Positions 6,981 to 25,907 of a stretch of 41,534 nt of DNA are shown piece after piece. Source of the DNA: Acidobacteriota bacterium (lineage in GTDB: Bacteria > Acidobacteriota > Terriglobia > Terriglobales > SCQP01); the NCBI GenBank assembly GCA_021826505.1, contig JAKAZV010000008.1:1-41534 (forward strand). Direction: 5' to 3'. The notes under the pieces were generated by a model, which saw only the letters and a list, made by a program, of their open reading frames with translations, did not search any database and was not told the origin of the DNA. A program made the position numbers and the translations under genes. Position 1 is the first letter of the stretch. The number at the start of each line of letters is the position of its first letter.

Positions 6981-7284
6981 CACTCCGTCTCCGAGCGGCG
7001 GCCTACGAGTCCACCATCAAGAATATTAAAACCGCATCGAGTAGGAAGGCCGGGTTTGCCTGTTAGATCCCGGCCCTCCGCCGTCAAATGATGCTGCGCG
7101 CTCAGGGAAAAACGAGCAGAGCCAGGCGGAAGCTGCGAGGCGATGTTGATCCCTGAGCGTGATCTTTGGATACTTCGGCCAGAGTGTATCACTAAATACA
7201 TTCCATCTTTTTGACCCATCCGCATGAAATTTAAACCGCAACTTTTATTCAATCCGAGGGTTGCTGCATTACAGGCTCTGTTTT
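6981..7284. other. Gene-free gap between divergent genes, contains one repeat copy
   Basis: About 300 bp separate the secreted protein (minus) from the DUF1800 gene (plus). A 90-residue frame on the minus strand (6980-7252) has no family features, overlaps the repeat copy at 7058-7096 and is not called. GAGCGTGATC at 7154-7163 also recurs at 11168-11177 next to the second repeat copy. No convincing promoter was found. Confidence 0.6.
7058..7096 (+). repeat. Dispersed ~40-bp intergenic repeat, copy 1
   Basis: The stretch starts GCCTGTTAG, continues CCCGGCCCTCCGCCGTC and ends AATGATGCTG. It matches 11128-11168 in the same orientation with only two substitutions in the last third and a small length difference after TTAG. 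The two copies bracket the DUF1800/DUF1501/small-protein genes. A third, short match (CCTGTTAGGTCCCG) lies at 36019-36032. Confidence 0.8.
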
Positions 7285-9318
7285 ATGCAATTGCGGAATC
7301 AACGCTGGCCGGAAATATTGAAATGGACCGCCGTTTTGATCGCGGCCACTGGCCTGGGCCTGGCGCCCGCGCCACGCCGGCCTTTAGTCCCGGCGCTGAC
7401 CCGGCGCCAGCGCATCCGGCTGGCGCTGGATCGGCTGACCTGGGGACCGCGCCCCGGCGATATCCGGAGGGTGGAAGCTCTCGGCCTGCAAAAATGGATC
7501 GCCCTTGAGCTGCATCCTGGCCGGATCCGGCAAAATCCCCGCTTACGGCGGCAGTTGCGGCTTCTGACCACTCTGCGCATGTCTCCACGGCAATTGCTGC
7601 GCCGCTACCCGCCGCCGCAGTTCATCAAGCAAATGGCTCTGGGCCGGCGGCCTTTGCCCTCCGATCCCGCCGTACGCGCCCGGGTTCAGGTTCAAATAGC
7701 CCGCTTGCGCCGGCAAATTGCGCAAAAAAATCTCTCTCCCGCCGCGATCCAGGCCGCGCGAAAACTCCGTTTGCTCCGGCGCGGGCGCCGGCTGCGGGCG
7801 CTATTGGGCAGTCAATTTGCCGCTCTTACTCACGCGCCCTGGCCGCGTCGCGCCGCGGTTTATGAACAACTTCCCGCCCCGGTGCGGCGAAAAGTCATCG
7901 CCTTGCTACCACGCGGCCAGGCGCTGCAACTGGCGCTCTGGCTGCCCTTGCCACAGTCCCGGGCCATTGAGCAATTAAAGGCTCCCATGATGGTTCCGGT
8001 GACCGATCTGCAGCAGGCCAAAATGCTGCGCGCCATCTACGGCACGCGCCAGCTTCAGGACGTGCTCACCGATTTCTGGTTTAACCACTTCAATGTCTAT
8101 TTATATAAAGGCGCCGACCGTTACTTCACCACGCAATATGCCGAGCAGGTGATCCGCCCCCATGTTCTGGGGCACTTTTATACCCTGCTTTTGGCCACGG
8201 CCAAAAGCCCGGCCATGCTGTTTTATCTCGACAACTGGCGCTCGGTCGCGCCCGGCGCCGGCGCGCGTCTGGCCGCCTTTCGCGCCCGCATGCAAGCCCG
8301 CCGCCGCGCTCACATGGCGCGCATGGGCATCATGGCCGGCTTTCTGCCCGCTTCCCGCCCCGCGCCGCGGCGCAAAGTTAACCCTCCCGGCATCAACGAA
8401 AATTACGGCCGCGAATTGATGGAGCTGCATACGCTGGGCGTCAACGGCGGTTATACCCAGCGCGATGTGGATCAGGTCGCGCTTTGCCTCACCGGCTGGA
8501 CGATCCGCACGCCCTTCCGCAATCCGGCTTTTTTCTTTGCCCCGCGCCTGCACGCCCGGCGGCCCAAAACCGTACTGGGCCGACCGATTGATGCGGGCGG
8601 AGAGCAGGATGGCATCGCGGTCTTAAAGTTGCTGGCCAATAATCCCGCCACGGCGCGGCATATCAGCTATGAACTCGCCCAGCGCTTCGTCAGTGACCAT
8701 CCGCCGCATGCCCTGGTGGACCGGATGGTTGCGGTCTGGCTGCGCAGCCATGGCGACCTGCGGCAGGTAATGGCGGCCATGATCGCTGCGCCCCAATTCT
8801 GGAGCCCGCGCTACGCCGGCGATAAATTCAAGGCGCCGTTGCAAATGGTCGCCAGCGCGGTGCGTGCGGTTCAGGCCAGGGTTTATAATCCCGAGCATCT
8901 GGTACAGGTGGTGGCGCAAATGGGCGAACCGTTATATCTGGATCTCACGCCGAACGGTTATTCCAACCGCAATCCCGACTGGATCTCCAGCACCGGGCTG
9001 GTGGATCGCATGAACTTCGCCCTCGCCCTGGGCGCCGGCTGGGTTCCCGGCTTGCGCATGACCATGCCCGTACTTCCTTCTGCCGCGGAAGCAAGCCGGG
9101 CCGCGGCACTGATCGCCCTTGCGCATGTTTTAGAGCAGCCGGCTCCCGCGCCCGCGGTGGAAAAAAATATGCTCGTGAGTTTGCGCCGCCTGCCTCGCCC
9201 CGCTGGCGCGGGATGGCGTTCGTTCGCCTCATCCCGGCCGCTCTCCGGCTTCAGCCCGGCGCAGGAAAAACTGTCTCTCGGGCTGCTGCTGGGCGCGCCC
9301 GGTTTCCAGCATTATTAA
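7285..9318 (+). CDS. DUF1800 family exported protein
   Basis: About 677 residues from ATG 7285; a TTG eight codons earlier (7261) with GAGGG directly before it is an alternative start. The N-terminus has a hydrophobic segment (EILKWTAVLIAATGLGLA) that should act as signal peptide or anchor. The body carries the DUF1800 hallmarks: DVLTDFWFNHFNVY, KSPAMLFYLDN, NENYGRELMELHTLGVNGGYTQ and DVDQVALCLTGWTI. DUF1800 proteins almost always sit next to a DUF1501 gene, as here 31 bp downstream; the biochemical role of the pair is not established. The first ~100 mature residues are unusually Arg-rich. Expected location is the periplasm or outside. Confidence 0.9.
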   Translation: MQLRNQRWPEILKWTAVLIAATGLGLAPAPRRPLVPALTRRQRIRLALDRLTWGPRPGDIRRVEALGLQKWIALELHPGRIRQNPRLRRQLRLLTTLRMSPRQLLRRYPPPQFIKQMALGRRPLPSDPAVRARVQVQIARLRRQIAQKNLSPAAIQAARKLRLLRRGRRLRALLGSQFAALTHAPWPRRAAVYEQLPAPVRRKVIALLPRGQALQLALWLPLPQSRAIEQLKAPMMVPVTDLQQAKMLRAIYGTRQLQDVLTDFWFNHFNVYLYKGADRYFTTQYAEQVIRPHVLGHFYTLLLATAKSPAMLFYLDNWRSVAPGAGARLAAFRARMQARRRAHMARMGIMAGFLPASRPAPRRKVNPPGINENYGRELMELHTLGVNGGYTQRDVDQVALCLTGWTIRTPFRNPAFFFAPRLHARRPKTVLGRPIDAGGEQDGIAVLKLLANNPATARHISYELAQRFVSDHPPHALVDRMVAVWLRSHGDLRQVMAAMIAAPQFWSPRYAGDKFKAPLQMVASAVRAVQARVYNPEHLVQVVAQMGEPLYLDLTPNGYSNRNPDWISSTGLVDRMNFALALGAGWVPGLRMTMPVLPSAAEASRAAALIALAHVLEQPAPAPAVEKNMLVSLRRLPRPAGAGWRSFASSRPLSGFSPAQEKLSLGLLLGAPGFQHY

Positions 9319-9349
9319 TCGTTCTTTGAAGAAGACGAAGGAGAACCCC

Positions 9350-10630
9350 ATGCCCACTCGCCGTATTTTTCTTCGCAACTCCGCCCTGGCCATGGTGGGC
9401 GTGGGTGTTTTGCCCAGTTGGCTCACCCGCACCGCCTGGGCGGCGGAAGCCGCCCGGCGCGGCAAAATTCTGGTGGTGATCTTTCAGCGCGGCGCTGCGG
9501 ACGGACTCAACATCGTGGTCCCGCATGGCGAAGCGGCGTATTACCGTTATCGTCCCACCATTGCCATCCCGCGCCCGCGCGGCAAGACTCCGCGCACGGC
9601 TGCGGCTCTGGATCTGGACGGCTTTTTCGGCCTGCATCCCGCGCTCTCCGGCTTGCAGCCGCTCTGGAAGCAGCATCATCTCGCCATTGTGCATGCCGCC
9701 GGCTCGCCCGACCCCAGCCGTTCGCATTTTCAGGCCCAGGATTATATGGAAGCCGGCACGCCGGGCCAGCCCGACACCTCCACCGGTTGGCTCAATCGGG
9801 TTCTGCGGGCGCAATGTCCCGACTGCGAAGCCGGACATAACCACGGCCAATCGCCTCTGCGGGCCGTGGCCATGGACGCGCAAATGCCGCTCACCCTGCG
9901 CGGCGCCGCTCCCGCTGTCGCCATCAGCGACCTGGCCGCCTTCCGGGTTGGCTATGGCCCCCTCGGCGCCGCCGGCGCCGAAGCCCTGCAGTCGCTTTAC
10001 GACCAGGATGGCGGCGCGCTGCTGCAGCCGGCCGGCCGCGATACCTTCGCCGCTCTGAAGCTGTTACGGCATCTGAATCCGCATCAATACCAGCCCGCTC
10101 CCGGCGCCCATTATCCCCGCCGCGGTCTCGGCCATGGACTGCGCCAGATCGCGCAATTGATCAAGGCCCGCGTGGGTGTCGAAGTCGCCTTTGCCGATAT
10201 TGGGGGATGGGATAATCACGTCGCCGAAGGCTCAACCGAAGGCCAGCTTGCGGGCCGGCTGCGCGAATTCGGCGACGCTCTGGCCGCCTTCTGGACCGAT
10301 CTCGGCGATCGCGCCGAAGATGTTCTGGTGGTTACCATGTCGGAATTCGGCCGTACCGCGCATGAAAATGGCAGCGCTGGCACCGACCATGGTCATGCCA
10401 ATGTCATGTTCGTTTTAGGCGGTTCGGTGCGCGGCGGTAAGGTCTATGGCCGCTGGCCAGGGCTGGAACCTGAACAGCTCTATCAGGGACGCGACCTGGC
10501 CTTGACCACCGATTTCCGCCTCGTGCTTGCCGAAGCAGTGCGCAATCATCTGGGCGTGAGTGGCCTGGAGCCGGTTTTTCCCGGATTTAATGCCGATCCC
10601 CGGCAGTTTCGCGGCTTTTTATCAACTTGA
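9350..10630 (+). CDS. DUF1501 family Tat-exported protein
   Basis: 426 residues from ATG 9350, which has AGGAG six bases upstream; the frame extends to a TTG at 9326 but the Shine-Dalgarno decides for 9350. The N-terminus MPTRRIFLRNSALAM is a twin-arginine signal (Arg4-Arg5) with probable cleavage after TAWA. The fold belongs to the alkaline-phosphatase/sulfatase-like DUF1501 group: ILVVIFQRGAADGLN near the start, SRSHFQAQDYMEAG, DIGGWDNH and VVTMSEFGRTAHENG with GTDHGHAN near the end; these Asp/His residues are the likely metal ligands of the family. It follows the DUF1800 gene and the two are probably one operon. Substrate unknown. Confidence 0.92.
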   Translation: MPTRRIFLRNSALAMVGVGVLPSWLTRTAWAAEAARRGKILVVIFQRGAADGLNIVVPHGEAAYYRYRPTIAIPRPRGKTPRTAAALDLDGFFGLHPALSGLQPLWKQHHLAIVHAAGSPDPSRSHFQAQDYMEAGTPGQPDTSTGWLNRVLRAQCPDCEAGHNHGQSPLRAVAMDAQMPLTLRGAAPAVAISDLAAFRVGYGPLGAAGAEALQSLYDQDGGALLQPAGRDTFAALKLLRHLNPHQYQPAPGAHYPRRGLGHGLRQIAQLIKARVGVEVAFADIGGWDNHVAEGSTEGQLAGRLREFGDALAAFWTDLGDRAEDVLVVTMSEFGRTAHENGSAGTDHGHANVMFVLGGSVRGGKVYGRWPGLEPEQLYQGRDLALTTDFRLVLAEAVRNHLGVSGLEPVFPGFNADPRQFRGFLST

Positions 10631-12665: not shown

Positions 12666-13520
12666 ATGACCAGTCCCGCTTTCCAAGGCTTGCGCGTGCT
12701 TTCGCTGGAATCCCGCCGCGCGGCGGAAATGGCGAAATTGATCTCACTTCTCGGGGGACAGCCGGTTGCCGCTCCCGCTCTGCGCGAGGTCGCCTTCGAA
12801 AATCAGGCTGAGGTCAGGGAATTTCTGGGCCGGCTCTGCGGCGGCGAACTCGACTGGATGATTTTTTTAACCGGGGCCGGGCTGCGCCGCACGCTGGAAT
12901 TGGCGGGGCCGGAATATTCTCCCGCCCAGCTCGCCCACGCCATGCGCCGCATCCGCGTATTGGCGCGTGGCCCCAAACCCGCGGCTGAATTGCGCAGGCT
13001 GGGAGTTGAACCCACCCTCATTGTGCCCGAACCCCATACCTGGCGGGAGGTGATTTCGAGCCTGGATGCCGCAGTGCCTTCCTGGCCGGGGTTGCGCGTG
13101 GGGGTGCAGGAATATGGCCAGCCCGCTGACGACTGCCTGCGGGAACTGGAGCGGCGCGGCGCCCGCATTCATGTCCTGCGCCTGTACTCCTACCAGTTGC
13201 CGGAAGATCTGGCGCCGCTGCGCGCCGCAATTCAGGAAATTGTGGCGGGAAATATTGCCGTTATCCTGTTCACCAGCTCCCAGCAGGCCATTCATCTGCT
13301 GCGGGTGGCGGCGGATATGGGCCTGGAAGCCGCGCTCCGGCGGGCGCTCGCGCGTTGCGTGCTGGCTTCCATCGGGCCCACCACCTCCCAGACCCTGCGC
13401 GATCACGGCCTGATTCCCGATCTGCAGCCCAGCCATCCCCACATGGGTTTCCTGGTCCGGGCCGCCGCCGAACAAGCGGAAGCCATCTTGCGCGGTAAAC
13501 GCGGAGCCATCGAATCTTAG
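12666..13520 (+). CDS. hemD: Uroporphyrinogen-III synthase
   Basis: 284 residues with the two-lobed HemD layout: lobe 1 begins GLRVLSLESRRAAEMAKLI and contains DWMIFLTGAGLRRTLEL and VLARGPKPAAELRRLGV; lobe 2 begins LRVGVQEYGQP and contains VLRLYSYQLPED, IAVILFTSSQQAIHLL and LASIGPTTSQTLRDHGL, followed by PSHPHMGFLV. HemD closes and inverts ring D of hydroxymethylbilane to give uroporphyrinogen III. Low overall conservation is normal in this family, but the sugar-lobe order and the IGPTT..L motif are diagnostic. It lies divergent to hemY and its stop codon (13518-13520) overlaps that of tamB. No clear Shine-Dalgarno precedes the ATG. Confidence 0.9.
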   Translation: MTSPAFQGLRVLSLESRRAAEMAKLISLLGGQPVAAPALREVAFENQAEVREFLGRLCGGELDWMIFLTGAGLRRTLELAGPEYSPAQLAHAMRRIRVLARGPKPAAELRRLGVEPTLIVPEPHTWREVISSLDAAVPSWPGLRVGVQEYGQPADDCLRELERRGARIHVLRLYSYQLPEDLAPLRAAIQEIVAGNIAVILFTSSQQAIHLLRVAADMGLEAALRRALARCVLASIGPTTSQTLRDHGLIPDLQPSHPHMGFLVRAAAEQAEAILRGKRGAIES

Positions 13521-16500
13521 CGGGCCCGCTGGCGAAAATGAAAGCTGATGCCGTAAATGCCAAACTGATTCCGGCTCATCAGAATGCTGAAATGTGAGTT
13601 GATGTTCCAGCTCACGCGCACAATGTTCTGCGAGCTGGAGCTCAGGTTTTGCGTGTAGGTAAAGCTCAAGCGGGGCGAAATCTGCTGCTCAATCGTAATC
13701 GCCCCGCTGCTGGCGCCGGTATAAACATTCGCCGCATTCGGGTTCACGCTGATGCGGGTAATGCCGAAAATCCGCCGCACCCGGCTGGCGGCGACATTTT
13801 CCAGGGCGGCGCTCAATAACTGCTCCGACTGCCCCATGAAGCCGCTCGAAGCCTGCTGCGACATGCTGGCATAGGTGCTTTGCTCCGCCGTCTGGCCGGT
13901 GGCCAGCAGGGCGATGATATCGGAATTGGAAAGCGGCGGGTCGCTGCGATAACTCACATTCAGCTTATCCATGGGCCCGGAAATGCTGAGCGTGATGTTG
14001 TAATACTGCACCGTGGTGCTGAGCACAATATTGAGCAGGGGGTTGATGGCAAACGGATCTGCGAACTCTATATTGGCGCGATCCACGCTGAACCGGTTGC
14101 CGGCGAAGCGCAAGCTGCCTTCGGTTCCGGAAATATGGCCCAGCAGTATGGGATCCGCCAGGGTTCCCTGGACCCGCAGATCGGCCTGCGCCTGCAGTTG
14201 CGCGCTGGAGCTGGCCACCTGCAGTCCGGGCCCGGTAATCAGATGGATCGCCAGCTTCAGCCGCCCCAGCGAGCTCGGACCCGTGGAACCGGTTTCACTT
14301 CCGCGCTGGTTGGCGAGAAAGACCGCCAAATCGAAATTCGGGGTCAGCGCCATCCGGTTGAGCACAATATCTCCGCTCAATAATCCGCTCTTGCCGGTGC
14401 CGGCCAAATGCAGCCGCGCATCGCCCGAGGCGCTGATGCCGGTGTAAAGCACGCGCAATTGGCTCCCCGTCAGTGAAAAATCATAGTTCAAGCCCGCCGG
14501 GGTATACGCCGCGAACCCCGAGGCCTTGAGCATGCCGCCTCCGGCATGAGCGGTGAACTGTTCCAGGGTTGCGCGATTCCCGCTCAGCCGGATGCGACTC
14601 TGCACATGATCGAAGGCGATCGGCACTCCCGTTTCCGCCAGGCTGCCATTCCGGATCTGGACCGTCCCCTCGGGCCGGGGATGGCTCAGATCGCCCTGCA
14701 GGCGCGCCTGGATCAGCAAACGTCCCGCGCTTTGCACATGATGATTCAGCACATGCAGCAGCGCCAGATTCACATCCCCCTTGAGCGATGCCTGGATGGG
14801 CCGGACGCCATGCAAGCCGATCGTGCCCGCGGCCCGCAGATCGGTGTCGGTGCCCAGCAGATGAAACTGATTGACGGTGAACACGTCGCGATCAAGTGAA
14901 AACTCGAGCGGACCGGCATTGAAAAGCGCCATCCCCTCCGCTTCAATGCGCGCCTGGGTAAAGCTGGCCTGCGCGACCAATGCATTGGGCTGCCGGAGCG
15001 GCCCCTGGAGCGTGAGCGCGCCGCTGAACTGGCTGTGCCCGGTCAGATGCAGCGGAGTAAAGCGCCGCAGCCAGGCATCGGCGTCATAGTGGTTAAGCTC
15101 GACCCGGGCATTGATTAAATATTGCGGTCCCATGCCCAGCACCGCGGTCAAATGCAGGTCTCCGCCCGGCAGCGTATCGGTGCCGTCCAGGCGCGCGATC
15201 TGGTGGGCCAGAATGAAGCTGGCGTGCAGCTGTCCCATCGGTTCGCCGTTGCCGCGCATATCCACGCCTTCCACCTGAAGCTGGCCGGAGGGGTGCGCCA
15301 GCGTGCCCGCGCCGGACAGATGAAACCGCAGCAAGCCGCTGACATGCAGCCGCGCCGATTGCAGCGGCGGCAAATCCTGCAGTTGAATGCCCGCTGAAGC
15401 CAGTGCCACCTGATAGCGCTGCCGGCTCAGGTTATAGCTGATCCGGCCGTTGATCGCGGCGGCGGGCAATATGATTTGCAGGGGCGCCGCCGTGAATGTC
15501 CCCGCCCGCAGCCTGAGTCCGGCGTTGATGGAGCGAATGGGCTGGCCCCATGCGGCGGCCTGGGTAATTTGCAGGCGCCCCTGTCCTTTCGGATGCGCCA
15601 GATTGCCCCGGACCCGCAGTTGCATATTGATCAGCCCCTTGACCGGATCATGGCGGCGCAGCAGGGCTTCGATCTCGCTGACCGGTAATTGCCGGGCCGC
15701 GGCCGTGAACGCCACTGCTCCTGCGGGCAGGGGATGATATCGGCGTAAGGCCAGCGAGCCCTGCGCCGTGACGCGGGCCTTGCCCAGGCGCAGTTCCGCG
15801 GCTGCGATCTGCATGCGGTTGGAATTCAGCCTGCCTGTGATCGAGGCCTCGTCCAATCGCCAGCGTCCCAGGGCGAAATGGTGAGCCTGCAAGCGGCCCG
15901 ACAAGGCAGGCGCGCTGGGCTTGCCGCTCAGGCTCCCGCTGAATTGCAACTCTCCGTTCATCGCGGGCAGGTGGAGACCGGCAATCCGCAGCCAGCCCGG
16001 CCACGCCCGCACATGCCGGCTTTGCAGTTGAATCCCTATCCGCATCCCGGCTCGCCGCCAGGCCCCCGCGGCATGCAGGCGGGCGCCCGGGAGCGCCAGC
16101 CTTATCTGGCGGATTTTGCCGGTTCCAAATCCCGGGCCCAGCCGCAGTTGGATGACGCCCCGCAGCGGAATCGGGACATGGGCGCGGCTCGCCTTATATT
16201 GGGCCGCCACCGGCACGGGATTCCGGGACGAAACAATATGGACCGCCATCTGGCCCCGCAGGCTCCGTGCGACATCGGCGCCCGCGCGAAAAGCAAAGCT
16301 GCCGCTCATGCGGCCGGTCAACCGCGGCATGGCGGGTAATGGCCCCGCATGGGATTTTGATTTCCGGTTTTCCGCCAGCGCGAACGCGCTTTGCGCCAGC
16401 GGCCCAATGCGCAGGCCCGTCATCTCGCCCTGTGCCCGGTATTTCCCGCGACCCGCTCTCAGGCCATAGCGCACGCTGAGCCGGGCTTGCCCGGCCAGGC

Positions 16501-17539
16501 CGTGCACGATCAAGGGTGCGATCTTCACCCGGCGGGGATTGGCATTGAACTGCGCCAGGGCCGACCAGACGCCCAGCTCCGAGCTGCGAGCGGACGGGCG
16601 CAATCCCTGCGCCGCCAATCCCCCGCTCGCCGACCATGTCCCTGCTTGCCAGGTAAAAAGGATATGCGCCATGGCGGCGCCCGCGGCCAAAGGCGCCGGG
16701 CGCGTTCCGGACCACTGCTGCCATAACTGGCGCAGCTCCAGTTGCGCCCAGGCCTGCCCGCTGATATGCGGATGGGTTAAGTTGCTCACCATCACCGTTC
16801 CGTGAGCTTGCCATCCCGCTCCGTTCAGCTTCCAGCGGCGTAGTTTCAGGTCATTGGGCCATAGCGAAAATCGCAAACTCGCCTGCAGCCGTCCCAGTCC
16901 ATGCTGGCCGTAACGCCACTGCCTCCCGCTGAAACGCAGCCGGCCGCGGTAATGTCCTCGCGCATAATGCATCCGTAAATGCAGATGGCGCAGCCGGGCC
17001 GAAAACGGAATCCGCTGGTTGCGCAGATACAGCATGCCTTGCCGCACCAGCAATCGCCGCACTCCCATTTGAAATAAGCCTGCGGCCGGTGCTCCGTGAG
17101 CGCCGCCGGTTGGATGCGGCAGGTTGGTGCCTCCGGACGCAAGCCACTCAATATGAATCGCGGGCCGCTCAATCTGGACCGTGGTTAAATCCACTTGGGC
17201 GCTCAGCAGCGAGCGCACCGTCAGGCCCAGCCGCACGGCGCCGATGCGCGCCAGCGGCGGCTGACCCGCTCCTTCCCGCCCATGCAGGACCAGCCCCCGC
17301 ATTTCAATCGCCAGCGGCCGCAAGCGGAGATGAAAATACTTCATCTCCACTCGCGCCCCTGTCGCCGCCGTGATCTTGTTCTGGACCAGGGCCTGCATCT
17401 GGCGCTGAAATTTCTGCGTATGCACGTACCACCAGACGCATGCTGCCAGCGCGAGCAGTATCAGGGCCAGCCCCGTCAGCCACCAAAGCCATCGGGGCCG
17501 GTGACGGTGTGCGGGCGCGGGCTGGAGTTCTTCCTTCAT
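13517..17539 (-). CDS. tamB: TamB-like translocation and assembly protein (DUF490)
   Basis: 1340 residues. A short cytoplasmic start is followed by one transmembrane helix (~15-38, WLWWLTGLALILLALAACVWW), then more than 1200 residues of repetitive beta-strands with alternating polarity, the AsmA/TamB-type groove that is thought to carry lipids or help outer-membrane insertion. The C-terminal ~350 residues hold the conserved TamB domain (GTEGSLRFAGNRFSVDRANIEF, INPLLNIVLSTTVQYYNITLSISGPMDKL, RSDPPLSNSDIIALLATGQT, VNPNAANVYTG). It is the last gene of the operon with the Omp85 protein and the SurA-like protein; its ATG overlaps the preceding gene by four bases. E. coli TamB has 1259 residues, so the length is normal. 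Confidence 0.93.
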   Translation of the reverse strand: MKEELQPAPAHRHRPRWLWWLTGLALILLALAACVWWYVHTQKFQRQMQALVQNKITAATGARVEMKYFHLRLRPLAIEMRGLVLHGREGAGQPPLARIGAVRLGLTVRSLLSAQVDLTTVQIERPAIHIEWLASGGTNLPHPTGGAHGAPAAGLFQMGVRRLLVRQGMLYLRNQRIPFSARLRHLHLRMHYARGHYRGRLRFSGRQWRYGQHGLGRLQASLRFSLWPNDLKLRRWKLNGAGWQAHGTVMVSNLTHPHISGQAWAQLELRQLWQQWSGTRPAPLAAGAAMAHILFTWQAGTWSASGGLAAQGLRPSARSSELGVWSALAQFNANPRRVKIAPLIVHGLAGQARLSVRYGLRAGRGKYRAQGEMTGLRIGPLAQSAFALAENRKSKSHAGPLPAMPRLTGRMSGSFAFRAGADVARSLRGQMAVHIVSSRNPVPVAAQYKASRAHVPIPLRGVIQLRLGPGFGTGKIRQIRLALPGARLHAAGAWRRAGMRIGIQLQSRHVRAWPGWLRIAGLHLPAMNGELQFSGSLSGKPSAPALSGRLQAHHFALGRWRLDEASITGRLNSNRMQIAAAELRLGKARVTAQGSLALRRYHPLPAGAVAFTAAARQLPVSEIEALLRRHDPVKGLINMQLRVRGNLAHPKGQGRLQITQAAAWGQPIRSINAGLRLRAGTFTAAPLQIILPAAAINGRISYNLSRQRYQVALASAGIQLQDLPPLQSARLHVSGLLRFHLSGAGTLAHPSGQLQVEGVDMRGNGEPMGQLHASFILAHQIARLDGTDTLPGGDLHLTAVLGMGPQYLINARVELNHYDADAWLRRFTPLHLTGHSQFSGALTLQGPLRQPNALVAQASFTQARIEAEGMALFNAGPLEFSLDRDVFTVNQFHLLGTDTDLRAAGTIGLHGVRPIQASLKGDVNLALLHVLNHHVQSAGRLLIQARLQGDLSHPRPEGTVQIRNGSLAETGVPIAFDHVQSRIRLSGNRATLEQFTAHAGGGMLKASGFAAYTPAGLNYDFSLTGSQLRVLYTGISASGDARLHLAGTGKSGLLSGDIVLNRMALTPNFDLAVFLANQRGSETGSTGPSSLGRLKLAIHLITGPGLQVASSSAQLQAQADLRVQGTLADPILLGHISGTEGSLRFAGNRFSVDRANIEFADPFAINPLLNIVLSTTVQYYNITLSISGPMDKLNVSYRSDPPLSNSDIIALLATGQTAEQSTYASMSQQASSGFMGQSEQLLSAALENVAASRVRRIFGITRISVNPNAANVYTGASSGAITIEQQISPRLSFTYTQNLSSSSQNIVRVSWNINSHFSILMSRNQFGIYGISFHFRQRAR

Positions 17540-18288
17540 CCGTGGATTCGCGCCGTCACCCGTTGCCGCGCCGTCTTTCCATCGCCATAATGGCCGAGTT
17601 TGCCAATCCGGGCATGATGGCGCAATTGCATGATCCAGGCTTGTTCCCTCCGCCCCAGCGCTTGTTGCCGCAGAATGGTGCGGATCAGCGGCCGGACTCG
17701 CATCAGCGCCGCTGCCGGCTCATGCTTCCTGCGGCACATCGGCAGATAAATCTGCTGATAATATTTCCGCTCCGCGGCCGCGGAAATGTGAATTTGCGGG
17801 TTGAACTTGCCATCCATGAACCTGAGCATCGCGTATTGCCGGCCCGCCAGCCGGCGCAGTTGGCCGGTTGTTAAGTGGTATTTTCGTGCCTGCGCCCGCA
17901 AATGCTCCATTCCGCCCATTTGCCGCGCCCATGCCCTCCATTGCGGCTCCGGCAGCGGACTGGAAGCTCCTCTCGGCATGGCTTGCGCGATCAGCCGCTC
18001 CAGGATGAGATGATGCAGCGCCGCGCGGCAGTCCAGATTGCGCAGAGCCGTTCTGTGCTCATTCGGGGTGGAAAAAAGGCGATACCACGCCGCCTGCCGC
18101 ACCTGGCTGTCGAGAATGGGCCGGCGGTTCACCACCGCGACGACCCGGTCCAGGGTCTTCCCATGTGCGTTGTTCTGTGATCGCCGCCGGGGATGAAATG
18201 CGCACTGCCCGGCCGCGGCCGTGGTGAGCAGGATGATGGACGCCGGCAGCCAGTAATGTACAAATGCGGATGGGCGTCTTGGGTTCAC
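17536..18288 (-). CDS. SurA N-domain-like periplasmic chaperone without PPIase domain
   Basis: 250 residues from a GTG at 18288, one base after the stop of the Omp85 gene. A hydrophobic segment (LPASIILLTTAAAGQCA) should be a signal peptide. The mature part opens with LDRVVAVVNRRPILDSQVR, the characteristic first strand and helix of the SurA N-terminal domain, followed by ALHHLILERLIAQ and, after a helical linker, ISAAAERKYYQQIY; the C-terminal helix RPLIRTILRQQALGRREQAWIMQLRHHARI corresponds to the SurA C-helix that packs on the N-domain. No parvulin (PPIC) domain lies between. Its place between the Omp85 gene and tamB suggests a chaperone for outer-membrane substrates. A Cys pair is absent. 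The function is inference from fold and context. Confidence 0.8.
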   Translation of the reverse strand: MNPRRPSAFVHYWLPASIILLTTAAAGQCAFHPRRRSQNNAHGKTLDRVVAVVNRRPILDSQVRQAAWYRLFSTPNEHRTALRNLDCRAALHHLILERLIAQAMPRGASSPLPEPQWRAWARQMGGMEHLRAQARKYHLTTGQLRRLAGRQYAMLRFMDGKFNPQIHISAAAERKYYQQIYLPMCRRKHEPAAALMRVRPLIRTILRQQALGRREQAWIMQLRHHARIGKLGHYGDGKTARQRVTARIHG

Positions 18289-18289
18289 T

Positions 18290-21268
18290 TTAAAAGGTTT
18301 GGCCTATGCTGAAAAAGAACTGAAAATGCGAAAGTTGTTGCTGCACCAGCTTGGTTTTATTGTAGGTTTGAAACGCCGGCGGGTTGAGCAGATAGCCAAA
18401 GTCCAGCCGCACCGGCCCCACCGGCGTTTTATAGCGCAAGCCGAAACCCAGCGTGTCGGAGGTGTAGTTCAGATCCGTCAGTGAGGGCGGATGATATCTT
18501 CCCAGACCGCGCAGCAGAGACCGGAATGAGCTGTAAACGTTGCCGGCATCATAAAACCAGACTCCGCCGATGTCCCGCCCGATCAGCGGAAACCGCAGTT
18601 CCAGATTGTTGATGAACAGCGCCGTCCCGCCCACCGGCACGCCCGTCACCGGATCGCGCGGCCCGGCCTGGTCAAAGGCGAAGCCGCGCAGCGAATCGGC
18701 TCCGCCGGAAAAAAACCGCTCCGGCAGCGGAATATCATAAACCTGCGTCGTCACCGGCTTCTGCCCGGGAATCGCCAGCGTGCTCGGCTCGCGGGCGCCG
18801 AAGGGCAGCTCTTCCCCCACGCGCGTGGCGTTGGCCAGTATCCAGTGCCGACGCGTGTCGAGCGGAATATAGAACGCATGCTCGCCCATCAGGCGCACAA
18901 AATTCGATGCCCCGTAGCTTTTGGCGATGGCCACCGAGGCGGTGTCGTAGGTTCCCGCATGGGTATCGGTGGGATTGTCGCGCCGGTCGCGCACCAGGCT
19001 GGTTTCCGCGATCGCCAGCTCGGCGGGCCGGCTCAGCAATGGCACCTGCTGGGCTGAAAAGGAGCCCGGCGATATGATGGCCTGCACCCGGCGGTACACC
19101 AGCCGGTATAAAACCTGCAAATCACTCGCCGGCTGGGTCGAGAGCTGGGCCGCTGTCTGCTCGCGAATGGCGCGAAAGGTGACCAGATCGTACCGGTCGT
19201 CATAGAGCGCGCTGAGATCCAGCTTCCATTTGCGGTGGGTCAGAAAATACGGGAGCCGGTAATCCAGACCGGCCCGGCGCTCGATTGAGCCATACAGGGT
19301 GTCGAGCGAGAGCGTCTGCGGCCGCCCGGTAACCGCCAGCCGGGTCAACTGAAACGATACATCCGGACTGAATCCGCTGCCGCTGATCGAGGGAATCTGG
19401 TTGACTCCCGTCCCGCCCTGAAACTGCATCCCCACGCCCTCGCTGAAGGAATAGCGCGGCGCCTCATGCACCACCACCAGCACATCCTTGGCCGGCAAAT
19501 CGCTGCTCGGGTTCTGCACCGCCACGCTCACGCCGGTGAACAGATCCATGTCATAGAGCCGGCGCTGGGTCGCCAGCAGCTTCGTCTGGCTCAGCGGCTG
19601 CCCGGGCTTGACCTGTATCTGGCGTGCAATCACCGCCGGTTTGACGAAGCGCTCGCCGCTGATATAAACCTGGTGCACGCTGTCTACCGGCCCTTCATAA
19701 ATCGTAAAAGCCACATCTTCGAATGGCCGGCCGGCAACGGCATGGATTTGACTGCGGCATTGCGCCTGCAGATAGCCGTGATTGTAATAGCGCTCTAAAA
19801 TGCGATTGCGGTCGGCGGCCACGGTGTACGGCGAATAGGGCTCTCCCGGCGCGGTATTCAGCCAGCTCTCGATGCGGGCCACGCTGAATCGCCGGTTTCC
19901 CGTGATCGTCAGCCGCCGCACCACCGTCTGCCGGCCTTCCTGAATATCAAATCGCACCGCCAGATGCCCGGGCTGGCCATGGTAACGGCGTAGAATGACG
20001 GGCGTGACCCGCGCCTGCGCAAACCCATTGGCATGATAGAGCGAGGTGATGGCGCGCGCATCGCCTTCCATCAGGCGATGCGAAAATCGCCCCCGCACGC
20101 CGGGAATGAAATTGGGCAATAAGGGCGCGGTGGGCCGTTCGGCCAGTTGGGGCTCAAGCTGATCTTTGGAAAAATAATGATTGCCGCGAAATAGAATAGC
20201 CCGAAGTTCTTCTTTAGGCCCGGTATGAACGGTATACAGAACTTCCAGCCAGCCCGGTTTGGGATGTATGCGGCGAAACTCCACCCGGGCTTCGTAATAG
20301 CCTTTGCCCTGCAGATAATCCCGCAGATTGCGCCGGCCTTCGTTCATTAATTCTTCATCTGCGGCATGCTCCTGAAAAATCGGGACTTCCCGCCGCAGCA
20401 CGCTATGGGAAATCACGTTCCCTTCGACTGCCACGGTAACCAGGGGGCCGGGTTTGATTTCATACTTCAGATCCAGCCGATTGGCCGGGGCATTATAGGA
20501 AGTGAGCAAACGCAATTGTGCCGTCAGCCGGCCCAGCCGGGCGAATAGCTTGCGCAGACCGGCCCGCGCCTGCAGCAGGCGTTTTTGCGTCAGCCGTTCT
20601 CCCGGACGCAATTTCACTGCTTTGCGCAGCAGTTTCGGCGCCACCAGGCCATAGCCGGTAAAACTCAATTGGCCGAGCCGGGCCAAAGGGCCGGCCTGTA
20701 AAATCAGCGTGATCTGCACCCCCGCCTGTCCCGGGTGCCGTGCGATTTCGGGCTGAACTTTTGCCTGCCGGTACTGGTAATTCGCCATGCGGTCAAGAAT
20801 GCGTCCGGCGGCCTGCTTCAGGCGGGCGCGGGTGTATAGTTCTCCGATCTGCAATCCGCTGATGTCGGCCAACTCGGTATCGCTGGGCGGATTAGGCCCG
20901 TTTTTGACCCTGACCAGGGTAATAAAATAATTCGGCCGCGTGCGAAAGTATAATGCCACTCCTCCCGGCGCCTTTTTTTCCCGGACTTCCACGCTGGCGA
21001 AGACTCCGGTCGCAAACAGGTTCTGAATGCTTCGCCGCACCGCGCGCTGGCTGAGCGGCTGACCGGACTTTTGCGTGATATACGGGAGAAATGTGCTGGC
21101 TTTCCGGCCGGGCGCGGGCTGCACATGAATCGCGCGCACCATGGGCTGCTTCGGCCTGGCGGCGCCGGCGCCGGCCACAAAAAAAAATCCGGCCAGCCCG
21201 AGGGCGCACTGCGGGCGCCCAGGGGCCATCCTGACAAAGTGCCGTAATTGCCGCTGAAATTCCCGCAT
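18290..21268 (-). CDS. bamA: Omp85 outer-membrane assembly protein with ~7 POTRA-like repeats
   Basis: 992 residues. After a signal peptide (GLAGFFFVAGAGAARP, ~22-38) the periplasmic part divides by eye into seven POTRA-like units: ~44-112, 114-194, 196-275, 276-351, 353-446, 448-527, 529-604, with the usual helix-glycine-strand ends (NLFATGVFASVEVR, YLQGKGYYEARVEF, RYYNHGYLQAQC, RLYDMDLFTGVSVAV). The rest is a 16-strand barrel with the lid motif LRGF (FSGGADSLRGFAFD), GPVRLDFGYLLN and a C-terminal beta-signal ending in Phe. BamA has five and TamA three POTRAs in E. coli, so the symbol is tentative; linkage to tamB makes a TamA-like role possible. A second start at Met14 (21229) exists. Confidence 0.93.
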   Translation of the reverse strand: MREFQRQLRHFVRMAPGRPQCALGLAGFFFVAGAGAARPKQPMVRAIHVQPAPGRKASTFLPYITQKSGQPLSQRAVRRSIQNLFATGVFASVEVREKKAPGGVALYFRTRPNYFITLVRVKNGPNPPSDTELADISGLQIGELYTRARLKQAAGRILDRMANYQYRQAKVQPEIARHPGQAGVQITLILQAGPLARLGQLSFTGYGLVAPKLLRKAVKLRPGERLTQKRLLQARAGLRKLFARLGRLTAQLRLLTSYNAPANRLDLKYEIKPGPLVTVAVEGNVISHSVLRREVPIFQEHAADEELMNEGRRNLRDYLQGKGYYEARVEFRRIHPKPGWLEVLYTVHTGPKEELRAILFRGNHYFSKDQLEPQLAERPTAPLLPNFIPGVRGRFSHRLMEGDARAITSLYHANGFAQARVTPVILRRYHGQPGHLAVRFDIQEGRQTVVRRLTITGNRRFSVARIESWLNTAPGEPYSPYTVAADRNRILERYYNHGYLQAQCRSQIHAVAGRPFEDVAFTIYEGPVDSVHQVYISGERFVKPAVIARQIQVKPGQPLSQTKLLATQRRLYDMDLFTGVSVAVQNPSSDLPAKDVLVVVHEAPRYSFSEGVGMQFQGGTGVNQIPSISGSGFSPDVSFQLTRLAVTGRPQTLSLDTLYGSIERRAGLDYRLPYFLTHRKWKLDLSALYDDRYDLVTFRAIREQTAAQLSTQPASDLQVLYRLVYRRVQAIISPGSFSAQQVPLLSRPAELAIAETSLVRDRRDNPTDTHAGTYDTASVAIAKSYGASNFVRLMGEHAFYIPLDTRRHWILANATRVGEELPFGAREPSTLAIPGQKPVTTQVYDIPLPERFFSGGADSLRGFAFDQAGPRDPVTGVPVGGTALFINNLELRFPLIGRDIGGVWFYDAGNVYSSFRSLLRGLGRYHPPSLTDLNYTSDTLGFGLRYKTPVGPVRLDFGYLLNPPAFQTYNKTKLVQQQLSHFQFFFSIGQTF

Positions 21269-21364
21269 GCCCAGCCGATGCGCCGCTCCACTTCCGCACT
21301 TCTGATATTAGTGGAGAACCTGCCTGATAAAAGGTGCGATTTGGTTTGGCAGGGTGGTCCGCGG

Positions 21365-22621
21365 CTATGGCATGCCGGCGTGGTCGGGCTGTTTGATCTC
21401 CGCCATAAGACTCAGGCTCTTGGCTAAGGGCGCGGCGTGCAGCAGTTCGAGCGCGCGGTTCAACTGCAGATCCCGCCGGGGTGGCAGCACGCCTAAAGGC
21501 GGCACATCAAAGTCCGGCAGGGCGCCGGGGTAACGTACTTGCTCGATATTGGGGGTGACGGCCGTGGTCTCGAATGGCTTGCCGTTCGGCGCTTCATACT
21601 GCGCCACCGTCAGCAACAGGGCGCCGCCCTGGGGCAGGGGAAATAATTTCTGCACCGCGCCTTCTCCAAACGTCTTATCTCCCACCAGATTGGCGCGGTG
21701 ATTTTGCAGCAGGGCCGCGGCCAGCGCCTCGGCCGGTCCGGACGTGCCCGCATTCACCAGCACCGCCATGGGGATTTTGGGCCATAACGTCTGCGCCGGG
21801 CTGGCGCGGAAGATCTGTTCCGGAAAATGGCGCCCCGCCAATCGCATCATAATGCCCTGGCGGAGAAAATCATTGGCCAGCGCGGCCGCCGCGGCGTAGC
21901 TTCCCGAGCCGCATCCGCGCAGATCCAGAATCAGGCCGCGGACGCTCCGCGCCCGCAGCCGGCGAAACCGGGCAGCGAATTCAGCCGGCCGCGCCGGACT
22001 CAAATCCGGCAGCCGCAGATATGCGATCGCGCCGTCGAGCCGCTGCGCCAGAATCGGCCGCGGGTTGCGGGCGATGAAGGTCAGCGTCAGGCTCTGTGGC
22101 TGCGTGCGGCGCAGGTGAACCGCCCGCAGGGTAACCGCTTGCCCCGGCGCTCCGCTCAGTAGATGACGAATTTCATACAGCGATAAATACCGCGCTCGCT
22201 GCCCGGCGATGGTTTCTAATATATCGCCGCGGTGCAGTCCGGCGCGGGCCGCCGGGCTGCCGGGTTCAACGTCCACCAGATAGGCGTATCCGCCGCGCTT
22301 CGAAACCACCAGCCCCAGCGTTCCGGCTTGCCTGGGCTGCGCCCGCGTGGCCTCATATTGCTGATATTCAGACGGCGATAAATAACTGGAATCGGCATCC
22401 AGGGAATTCAGCAAGCCATGCAGCGCGCCATTCGTCACTTTGCGCAGATTGGGTGGGCTGACATAATCGCGCTGAATGTGTTCCAGCACTTCCGCATACA
22501 CTCCCATCTGCCGGTACGGGGTGTGATGATGCGGCTTGCCCGCGATCACGGCCCCGGCCACCACGTAGCCGGCCACCAGCAGGGAAATGCACAAAATGAT
22601 CCACGCGCGCGGACGCCGCAT
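21365..22621 (-). CDS. S41/Ctp-like PDZ protein without the catalytic Ser-Lys dyad
   Basis: 418 residues: an N-terminal membrane anchor or signal (~7-27), a helical region with YVSPPNLRKVTNGALHGLLNSL..SYLSP that is typical of carboxy-terminal processing proteases, a PDZ domain (~100-190, with GSPAARAGLHRGDILETIAG), then the S41 core (VRGLILDLRGCGSGSY, PMAVLVNAGTSGPAEALAAALL, VGDKTFGEGAVQK). In active Ctp proteases these last motifs read NxxSASASE and TFGKG; here Gly295 aligns with the catalytic Ser and Glu320 with the catalytic Lys, with the same 25-residue spacing as E. coli Prc Ser452-Lys477. It is therefore probably not an active peptidase of the usual type; Ser294 one residue away could be a substitute. 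It lies 96 bp upstream of the Omp85 gene on the same strand. Confidence 0.85.
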   Translation of the reverse strand: MRRPRAWIILCISLLVAGYVVAGAVIAGKPHHHTPYRQMGVYAEVLEHIQRDYVSPPNLRKVTNGALHGLLNSLDADSSYLSPSEYQQYEATRAQPRQAGTLGLVVSKRGGYAYLVDVEPGSPAARAGLHRGDILETIAGQRARYLSLYEIRHLLSGAPGQAVTLRAVHLRRTQPQSLTLTFIARNPRPILAQRLDGAIAYLRLPDLSPARPAEFAARFRRLRARSVRGLILDLRGCGSGSYAAAAALANDFLRQGIMMRLAGRHFPEQIFRASPAQTLWPKIPMAVLVNAGTSGPAEALAAALLQNHRANLVGDKTFGEGAVQKLFPLPQGGALLLTVAQYEAPNGKPFETTAVTPNIEQVRYPGALPDFDVPPLGVLPPRRDLQLNRALELLHAAPLAKSLSLMAEIKQPDHAGMP

Positions 22622-22675: not shown

Positions 22676-23890
22676 TTACAGCAGAATGCCCGCGGCCTGC
22701 AGTTCATCAATGACTTCCGGACTCAGCCCCAGCTCGGTCAGGATTTCGCGGCCGTGTTCGCCCAGCCGGGGCGGGGGCTGGTTGGGAGTTTCGCCGCGCG
22801 CGAGCGGGCTGGCCACCGTCTGAAACGCGCCCAGCTCGGGGTGGTCCAGGGTTTGGATCATCTCCCTTTGCCGCACGTGCGGCTGGCGCAGGACTTCGGG
22901 CAGCGGCGTCACCGCCGCCGCCGGCACGCCGGCGGCGCGCAGTTTTTCCAGCCACTCGGCCGCCGGGCGTTGCCGCAAAATTTCTCCCAGCCGCGCCGTG
23001 ACCCTGTCGCGGTCCCGGCAGCGGGCCTCGTTGCCCGCATAGCTCTCGCCCCACTCCGCGCATTCCAGCGCCTGGCACAATCGCCGCCACAGCTCCTGAT
23101 TGCTGGCGGCGATGACAATGCGGCCCTCGGCGGTGGCAAATTCCTGATACGGCGTGATCTGCGCATGCACATTGCCCAGCCGCGGCGGCTCGAATCCGGA
23201 AGCCAGCACGGCCGGCGCCAGCGTGCCCATCATGCCGAAGATGGAATCGAGCAGCGCCACATCCAGCCGGCTGCCGCGATCAGCGGCCGCCTGCGGGTCT
23301 TTCAATCCGCGCCTGCCCTGCAGCGCGGCTAGGATTCCCACCGCGGCATGGAGCCCGCCCGCCAGATCGGCAATCGCAATGCCGACTTTGGTCGGCGGAC
23401 CGTCCGGAAAGCCGGTCATCTCCATGAGCCCGCTCACCGCCTGCACGATCAGGTCGTAGCCTTTCCAGCGGCTCCAATCCCCCGTCTGCCCGAAAGCGGT
23501 GATGGAACAGTAAATCAGGCCGGGGTTCAGCGGACGCAAGCGTGCTTCATCCAGCTCCAGCCGCTCCATCACCCCGGGGCTGAAGTTTTCCACCAGCACA
23601 TCGGCCCGCGCCGCGAGCTGGCGCGCAATGTCCCGCCCTTCCGGCCGGCCGAGGTCAAGCGCCAGCGAGCGTTTGTTGCGGTTCACTCCCAGAAAATAGG
23701 AGCTGACCGCGGCCCCGCCCGAGCGCACATGCGGCGGCGCCCAGGCGCGGCTTTCATCGCCCTTCGGCGGCTCGATCTTGATCACCTCCGCGCCCTGATC
23801 GGCCAGTAGCAGCGTGCAGTAGGGTCCGGCCAGGGCGCGCGTGAAGTCCAGCACCCGCAGACCGCGGAGCGGCAGGGAAGCGGCAGACAT
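22676..23890 (-). CDS. Class III CoA-transferase (CaiB/BaiF family)
   Basis: 404 residues from ATG 23890; the open frame continues to 23956 but that part has no family similarity. Typical opening GLRVLDFTRALAGPYCTLLLADQGAEVIKIE, then GVNRNKRSLALDL, ADVLVENFSPGVMERL and ITAFGQTG. The nucleophilic Asp is Asp146 in GYDLIVQAVSGLM, followed by PPTKVGIAIADLAGG. The family transfers CoA between carboxylic acids through a covalent Asp-CoA anhydride/thioester path (formyl-CoA, succinyl-CoA:mesaconate or bile-acid CoA transferases); the substrate cannot be read from sequence. It is divergent from acetyl-CoA synthetase with only 64 bp between the two starts, so a shared regulatory region is likely. Confidence 0.9.
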   Translation of the reverse strand: MSAASLPLRGLRVLDFTRALAGPYCTLLLADQGAEVIKIEPPKGDESRAWAPPHVRSGGAAVSSYFLGVNRNKRSLALDLGRPEGRDIARQLAARADVLVENFSPGVMERLELDEARLRPLNPGLIYCSITAFGQTGDWSRWKGYDLIVQAVSGLMEMTGFPDGPPTKVGIAIADLAGGLHAAVGILAALQGRRGLKDPQAAADRGSRLDVALLDSIFGMMGTLAPAVLASGFEPPRLGNVHAQITPYQEFATAEGRIVIAASNQELWRRLCQALECAEWGESYAGNEARCRDRDRVTARLGEILRQRPAAEWLEKLRAAGVPAAAVTPLPEVLRQPHVRQREMIQTLDHPELGAFQTVASPLARGETPNQPPPRLGEHGREILTELGLSPEVIDELQAAGILL

Positions 23891-23954
23891 GTTTTCAGGG
23901 TAATGGCATTTGACTTCCCCGCCCCGCGGTTTCAAAATAATGCGGGTATAAATC

Positions 23955-25907
23955 ATGATGGATGAATCGTTTGCTCCTCCCGCCGCGTTTCAGGCCCAGG
24001 CTCGCGTGTCTGGCATCGCGGCATATCAGAAGCTTTATGCGGAGGCGCTCGCTCATCCGGAAGCCTTCTGGGGCGATCTGGCCCGCCGCCAGCTCGACTG
24101 GCTGCAGCCCTTCACCCGCGTGCTCGACTGGGATTCGCCCCATGCGCAATGGTTTGCAGATGGCAAAATCAACGCCTGTTATAACTGCGTGGACCGCCAT
24201 CTCGCCGGCTGGCGCCGGAACAAGGCCGCCATTCTCTGGGAAGGCGAAAATTTCGAGCAGCGCATCCTGACCTATCAGGAGCTGCATCGCAAAGTCGCCA
24301 AATTCGCCAACGCCCTCAAAAAACTCGGCTATCGGGCGGGCGACCGCGCCATCATCTATCTGCCCATGATTCCCGAGGCCGCCATCGCCATGCTGGCCTG
24401 CGCCCGCATCGGCCTCATCCACTCCGTGGTCTTTGCCGGCTTCTCCGCCGAGGCGCTCAAAACCCGCATTGACGACCTCGAAGCCACGCTCGTCATCACC
24501 GCCGACGCCGGCCGCCGCCGCGGCCGCGAAATCCTGCTCAAACGCAATGTGGATGCGGCCCTGGCCGACTGCCCCGGGGTGCGGCGCTGCATCGTCTACC
24601 AGCATCTGGGCGCCGGCATCGAAATGAAGCCGGAGCGGGACCTCTGGTGGAACGATCTCATGTTCGGCAGCTCCGAGGTGTGCCCGGCCGAAGCTTTGCC
24701 CAGCGAGCATCCGCTCTATGTCCTCTATACCAGCGGCACCACCGGCAAACCCAAAGGCGTGGTGCACACCACCGCCGGCTATCTGCTGCAATCCCAGATG
24801 AGCATGCAGTGGGTCTTTGATCTGCGGGAAGAGGATATCTACTGGTGCACGGCCGATATCGGCTGGGTCACCGGCCATTCCTATATCATTTATGGCCCCC
24901 TGGCCGCCGGCGCGACCACCTTGATGTACGAGGGCGCGCCCGACTGGCCCGAACCCGATCGCTTCTGGCGCATCATCGAAAAATACCGCGTCAATCTGTT
25001 CTACACCTCGCCCACCGCCATCCGCAGTTTCATTCGCCAGGGCGATAGCTGGCCTCAAAAACACGACCTGTCCAGCCTGCGCCTGCTCGGTTCGGTGGGC
25101 GAGCCGATCAATCCCGCGGCCTGGAAGTGGTACCACGAAACCATCGGCGGCGGCCGCTGTCCGATTGTGGATACCTGGTGGCAGACCGAGACCGGCAGCA
25201 TCCTGATCGCTCCTCTGCCCGGCGCGGTGGCGGCCAAACCCGGCTCCGCTACCCTTCCTTTGCCCGGCATTGTTCCCGATGTGGTGGATGCGGCCGGCCA
25301 ACCCGTGCCCGCCGGCCAGCAAGGGTTTCTCATCCTGCGCCAGCCCTGGCCTTCCATGTTCCGCACGCTCTATCGCGACGACGAGCGTTTCCGCGAAAAT
25401 TATTGGGCTCGGTTCCCCGGCGCCTATTTCACCGGCGACGCCGCCCGCCGGGATGCCGACGGCTATTACTGGGTGCTGGGCCGCGTGGATGACGTCATCA
25501 ACGTCAGCGGCCATCGCCTCAGCACCATGGAAGTCGAATCCGCCATGGTGCGCCATCCCGCCGTGGCCGAAGCCGCGGCCGTGGGCCGGCCGCACGAGCT
25601 CAAGGGACAGGCGCTGGTCGTCTTCGCCACCGTCAAAGGCCATGTCCAGCGCTCGCCCGAGCTGGCCGAGGAACTGCGCGGTTGGGTGGGCCAGGAAATC
25701 GGCGGCTTTGCCCGTCCCGATGAAATTCGCCTGGTCGAGGCCCTGCCCAAAACCCGCAGCGGCAAAATCATGCGCCGCCTGCTGCGCGAGCTGGTGACCA
25801 GCGCGCGGGTTGCGGGCGATACCACCACGCTCGAAGACTATGCGGTGATTTTGCAGTTGAGCCAGCAGGGCAAGGAAGAAGAAGAGCTGCTGCAAAAATC
25901 CGAATAA
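23955..25907 (+). CDS. acsA: Acetyl-CoA synthetase (AMP-forming)
   Basis: 650 residues, the usual Acs length (652 in E. coli). It activates acetate to acetyl-AMP and then acetyl-CoA in the cytosol. Visible landmarks: N-terminal ACS domain ([17 protein letters not shown]), [12 protein letters not shown]-loop [19 protein letters not shown] near residue 257, [42 protein letters not shown], and [16 protein letters not shown] with the acetylatable Lys near residue 605. Both the first ATG (23955) and the second (23958) are possible starts. A TATAAA at 23947-23952 leaves five bases before the second ATG, so a leaderless mRNA beginning there is possible; no Shine-Dalgarno is present. Confidence 0.97.

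Follow-up and report, generated by a model that had tools for sequence, protein, structure and literature searches.

The four consecutive minus-strand genes for an S41-like protein, an Omp85, a SurA-like protein and a TamB/AsmA-like protein probably represent two functional units, a TAM-type Omp85-SurA-TamB operon and a CtpA-derived pseudoprotease, which became neighbors in the genus from which the window comes. The window is the whole stretch of DNA that was analyzed, with a length of 41,534 nucleotides. All four open reading frames of an earlier sequence-only reading were recovered (Table 1), and the coupling that it described for the last three was confirmed: Omp85 and the SurA-like gene are separated by 1 nt, and the SurA-like and TamB genes overlap by 4 nt. 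The gap between the S41-like gene and Omp85 is 96 nt. Because a CoA-transferase gene lies only 54 nt from the S41-like gene, distance alone ties the latter no more to Omp85. A consensus scan for promoters and terminators was uninformative overall, returning 7 promoter-like sites where 3.1 were expected and 23 terminator-like sites where 9.2 were expected, none of them in the gap between the S41-like gene and Omp85. Since this gap holds no terminator-like site, co-transcription of the two genes is possible in the window's genus. In Pfam searches with the window proteins, S41 (6e-32) together with PDZ, Omp85 (3e-40) with six POTRA stretches, and TamB (3e-41) were matched, and SurA_N stayed below the Pfam cut-off with the single SurA-like sequence (0.021). 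Elsewhere in the window, a DUF1800 and a DUF1501 gene adjoin each other on the plus strand (7261-10630).

TABLE 1. Features of the locus, with positions counted in the window
Feature	Position	Strand	Remarks
S41/CtpA-type pseudoprotease with PDZ	21365..22621	-	418 aa; N-terminal signal/anchor segment
Omp85, six POTRA stretches and barrel	18290..21268	-	992 aa
SurA-core-like protein (N-domain and putative C-terminal helix, without parvulin domain)	17536..18288	-	250 aa; GTG start
TamB/AsmA-like protein	13517..17539	-	1340 aa
Gly295 codon, place of the catalytic Ser	21737..21739	-	Alignment to CtpA 7rpq
Glu320 codon, place of the catalytic Lys	21662..21664	-	Alignment to CtpA 7rpq
CoA-transferase, upstream of the S41-like gene	22676-23956	-	54 nt from the S41-like gene

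Gene order was compared in 100 genomes, the window's own genome and 99 relatives, which were searched with all four proteins; families, orders and classes of the compared genomes are given as codes from the genome search. This survey had been set beforehand as the refuting test of the claim, made in the sequence-only reading, that the four genes form one unit, and the S41-like gene proved to be unlinked to the other three. Omp85 adjoined TamB in 96 of the 99 relatives and the SurA-like gene in 91, and all three were found together in 89. An S41-like ortholog was present in 97 relatives (missing in G008 and G093), and in none of these 97 did the 20 kb on either side of it include the best match to Omp85 or to TamB. 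Where the S41-like gene and Omp85 shared a contig (28 genomes), the smallest distance was 76.5 kb. The sole exception was G001, from the same genus, where a second Omp85 piece follows the S41-like gene at the contig end, so that linkage was restricted to the window and this one relative. Among 60 loci read around the S41-like gene, 59 were without the Omp85-SurA-TamB trio; two of the 59 stop at the contig edge and are uninformative (L042 and L061), and two have a short downstream flank (L038 and L070). As the S41-like gene is unlinked elsewhere while the other three stay together, the window appears to hold two units side by side. A dedicated four-protein outer-membrane module, with the S41-like protein binding the C-termini of outer-membrane proteins, would fit the common strand and adjacency in the window and G001, the 96-nt gap without a terminator-like site, and the conservation of C-termini among outer-membrane proteins. 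Nevertheless it is very unlikely, given that no other relative with an S41-like gene and sufficient flank showed the linkage and that the S41-like gene elsewhere often adjoins peptidoglycan genes, and on the strength of the synteny the four-gene module was rejected. Binding of C-termini by the S41-like protein is possible, more likely for clients other than those of outer-membrane assembly.

For the SurA-like protein, a profile of 24 family members was compared with E. coli SurA. The profile matched the N-domain (1.4e-14) and, weakly, a second stretch at SurA 383-411, the last helix (7 bits), and gave no match over the two parvulin domains. SurA_N_3 was matched by 21 and SurA_N by 17 of the 24 members, and Rotamase by none of them; elsewhere in the window's own genome, Rotamase is matched three times. 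The chaperone without a parvulin domain described from the sequence alone was thereby borne out, and because Rotamase is absent across all 24 members, the loss is a trait of the family and not a quirk of one genome. Profile comparison thus makes the SurA-like protein a probable SurA core. A structure prediction for the protein alone was unusable (mean pLDDT 43.5). In E. coli SurA, in vivo chaperone activity is reported to reside primarily in the core formed by the N and C domains, with PPIase domains that are not wholly expendable (PMC2556385). The family profile resembles this core module in its match to the N-domain and perhaps also in the weak stretch at the C-terminal helix; the E. coli core is a laboratory truncation (PMC2556385), whereas here a probable natural stand-alone core is encoded in an Omp85-TamB operon.

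TamA-type Omp85 proteins have three POTRAs. The window Omp85, with six POTRA stretches and 60.9 bits against a TamA model cut-off of 625, is not of this type, yet it is encoded together with TamB, as expected for a TAM, in the window and in nearly all relatives. With the BamA model NCBIfam TIGR03303 it scored 296.8, just under the cut-off of 297.15. This score would fit a reading in which the trio is the organism's BAM complex, with the Omp85 as canonical BamA and TamB and SurA as ordinary partners. We consider that reading unlikely, because two Omp85 genes were found in the window's own genome, the second on contig C116, and because canonical plus duplicated BamA has been published for Acidobacteria (PMC4494059). 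The same paper by Heinz et al. (2015) describes BamA-TamB operons and extra POTRAs in this phylum, so that the acidobacterial Omp85-TamB pair as such is known; the word SurA is absent from its main text. The locus in the window resembles the published system in that Omp85 and then TamB stand in one operon, with many POTRAs, and in that a further Omp85 gene lies elsewhere in the genome, and differs from it by the parvulin-less SurA-like gene between Omp85 and TamB (PMC4494059). A literature search for TamA and TamB with a SurA-like protein gave no description of such a unit among the matches listed.

The trio is widely conserved. Junctions of -1/-4 nt were common among the loci examined, and a SurA-like gene was present in 39 of 40 loci fetched around Omp85; the fortieth (L139, from G005) is a different Omp85-TamB pair without a SurA-like gene. 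Outside the order, 42 genomes were picked, not at random, from 64 searched. Ten of them represent other families of the class, and all 10 have the order Omp85-SurA-TamB. The remaining 32 belong to other classes; 19 of these show a reordered version, TamB-Omp85-SurA, and among the 32, Omp85 adjoins TamB in 28 and the SurA-like gene in 22. By analogy with SurA, BAM and TAM, the coupled trio is likely an old Acidobacteriota outer-membrane assembly unit with its own stripped-down chaperone, which upholds, as likely, the assembly role proposed from the sequence alone. With this gene content, coupling and conservation in hand, we infer from E. coli SurA, BamA and TAM how clients might be handed over: the PPIase-less SurA core would hold unfolded outer-membrane clients for delivery to the Omp85 of the same operon, at its long POTRA arm, and TamB would span the periplasm. 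If the SurA core does belong to the TAM, it would show how an Omp85-TamB machine could obtain clients without BAM-type helpers, and it would bear on the origin of the TAM. Several relatives carry a second, divergent Omp85-TamB pair without a SurA-like gene (G002:C38, G088:C56, G005:C2 and others). In G005 and G011 this divergent pair is the only one, and no SurA-like match was found.

To characterize the S41-like protein, its catalytic positions were compared with those of P. aeruginosa CtpA. Relative to 7rpq, the Ser is replaced by Gly295 and the Lys of the FGKG motif by Glu320; chain 7rqh of the same protease has Ala at the 7rpq catalytic Ser. An S41 paralog in the window's own genome (contig C138), with 31% identity to the S41-like protein, has both Ser and Lys intact. 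The loss of the dyad noted from the sequence alone extends throughout the order: it is absent in all 61 sequences (the window and 60 orthologs), with Gly at the nucleophile position in each and a mixture at the Lys position (E 36, D 8, V 5, I 5, S 3, L 2, Q 1, A 1). Other families of the class, sampled at 40 loci, gave 38 without an intact dyad, and the nucleophile position at the 40 was occupied by Gly in 33, Ser in 5, Asn in 1 and Ala in 1. Over the ortholog alignment, Gly stands at the nucleophile place in 94 of 99 sequences, the two intact ones set aside, and the Lys place varies freely (entropy 2.64 bits). Compared with the same-genus copy, the S41-like gene gave dN 0.050 and dS 0.297 (dN/dS ~0.17); together with the conservation, this value ruled out a decaying pseudogene. 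Of the features of active CTPs (S41A, CtpA/Prc), the protein thus has the S41 and PDZ domains and lacks the Ser-Lys dyad. It is a conserved CtpA-family pseudoprotease under purifying selection, dead by sequence. A peptidase with rearranged catalytic residues is highly improbable. In its favor, Thr293 and Glu298, close to the lost nucleophile, show little or no variation; in the CtpA alignment, however, they belong to a loop motif common to active CTPs (G-S-A-S-A-A-E), and the Lys position is not conserved. Structure prediction of the S41-like protein with one relative was also unusable (mean pLDDT 35.2), and the fold and PDZ groove are therefore assigned from homology alone. A literature search for dead CtpA/S41 proteins in bacteria found no class-wide case among the matches listed, a result that argues weakly for absence.

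The surroundings of the S41-like gene in other genomes often point to the cell wall. In the sister family, which supplies 49 of the 60 loci read, a class A PBP is the next gene on the same strand at 44 of the 49, and at 39 of the 44 the two genes are 18-360 nt apart. PBP linkage was rejected as the ancestral state, since the PBP family occurred at 0 of 40 loci from the other families of the class. At 12 of these 40 the next gene encodes a PF04748 deacetylase of the YibQ/SddA type, -4 to 8 nt away in ten, and of the 64 genomes searched, 12 had PF04748, directly after the S41-like ortholog in 11. In P. aeruginosa, ctpA is described within the operon envC-ctpA-PA5135, where PA5135 is the yibQ/sddA ortholog (PMC12569750), and E. 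coli SddA is reported to deacetylate peptidoglycan and to be co-expressed with EnvC (PMC12440217). The S41-like protein has the domain architecture of Pseudomonas CtpA, PDZ plus S41, and a PF04748 deacetylase gene comes after its gene in a number of Acidobacteriota; it differs by the replaced Ser and Lys (PMC12569750). Because the deacetylase gene follows as in envC-ctpA-PA5135, the S41-like gene resembles a ctpA that once belonged to an old locus for the cell wall. No EnvC-like gene was recognized upstream among the neighbor families examined, and in the window's order the S41-like gene is no longer beside the deacetylase in the loci read. Other neighbors count against a strict cell-wall rule: an ABC-F gene follows in families f4 and f9, a gene that we take to be FmdB-like follows in f6, and in three loci of the window's own family (L035, L036 and L041) the product of the next gene has ~600 aa and weakly matches SpoIVB/S55 peptidases. 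Overall, gene order suggests that the S41-like gene probably belongs to cell-wall growth.

Since the PDZ and S41 domains are kept and a conserved Gly replaces the nucleophile, the S41-like protein most likely binds clients without cutting them; we infer this from its sequence, dead site, selection and peptidoglycan neighborhood. It would descend from the CtpA of an envC-ctpA-yibQ(sddA)-type locus. Its clients would most likely be peptidoglycan enzymes such as hydrolases, SddA and class A PBPs, bound by way of the PDZ domain at their C-termini or at exposed tails; it would serve them as a scaffold, or would shield them by competing with active CTP proteases. In a different role, the S41-like protein would regulate the active CTP paralog on C138, as its adaptor or decoy, through mixed assembly or substrate delivery. 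That paralog, with its intact Ser and Lys, would be the partner, and P. aeruginosa CtpA is described as hexameric and under the control of a partner protein (PMC8764530, PMC11021448). The paralog is distant and unlinked, however, and we regard the adaptor or decoy role as rather improbable. Tentatively, and with considerable doubt, the non-cutting pseudoprotease can be joined with the trio in a broader picture, in which Acidobacteriota have an ancestral three-part TAM with a stand-alone SurA core as its third subunit, and in which the cell-wall protease CtpA has become, in the window's class, a standing regulator that controls peptidoglycan enzymes without cutting them, in place of proteolysis. 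If the class-wide dead CtpA is real, nearly all members of a major soil lineage would have this bacterial pseudoprotease, often still at peptidoglycan loci, and it could be used to test directly whether cell-wall enzymes can be controlled by binding alone. The sister-family genome G093 (99% complete), without a close S41-like ortholog, provides a natural loss for comparison.

The history of the dyad was examined in a tree of 73 of 102 rows, for which 29 of 49 sister-family rows were dropped for speed and the two dyad columns were removed. The only two of the 40 class loci with intact Ser-Lys (L204 and L205), both from family f9, are nested among dead relatives, on weakly supported branches and with one distant outgroup. 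There may have been one regain or several losses, or f9 may be misplaced; all three fit the tree. In family f10, two loci (L189 and L195) have kept the Ser, carry Ile in place of the Lys and have a PF04748 deacetylase gene downstream, and they possibly represent an intermediate.
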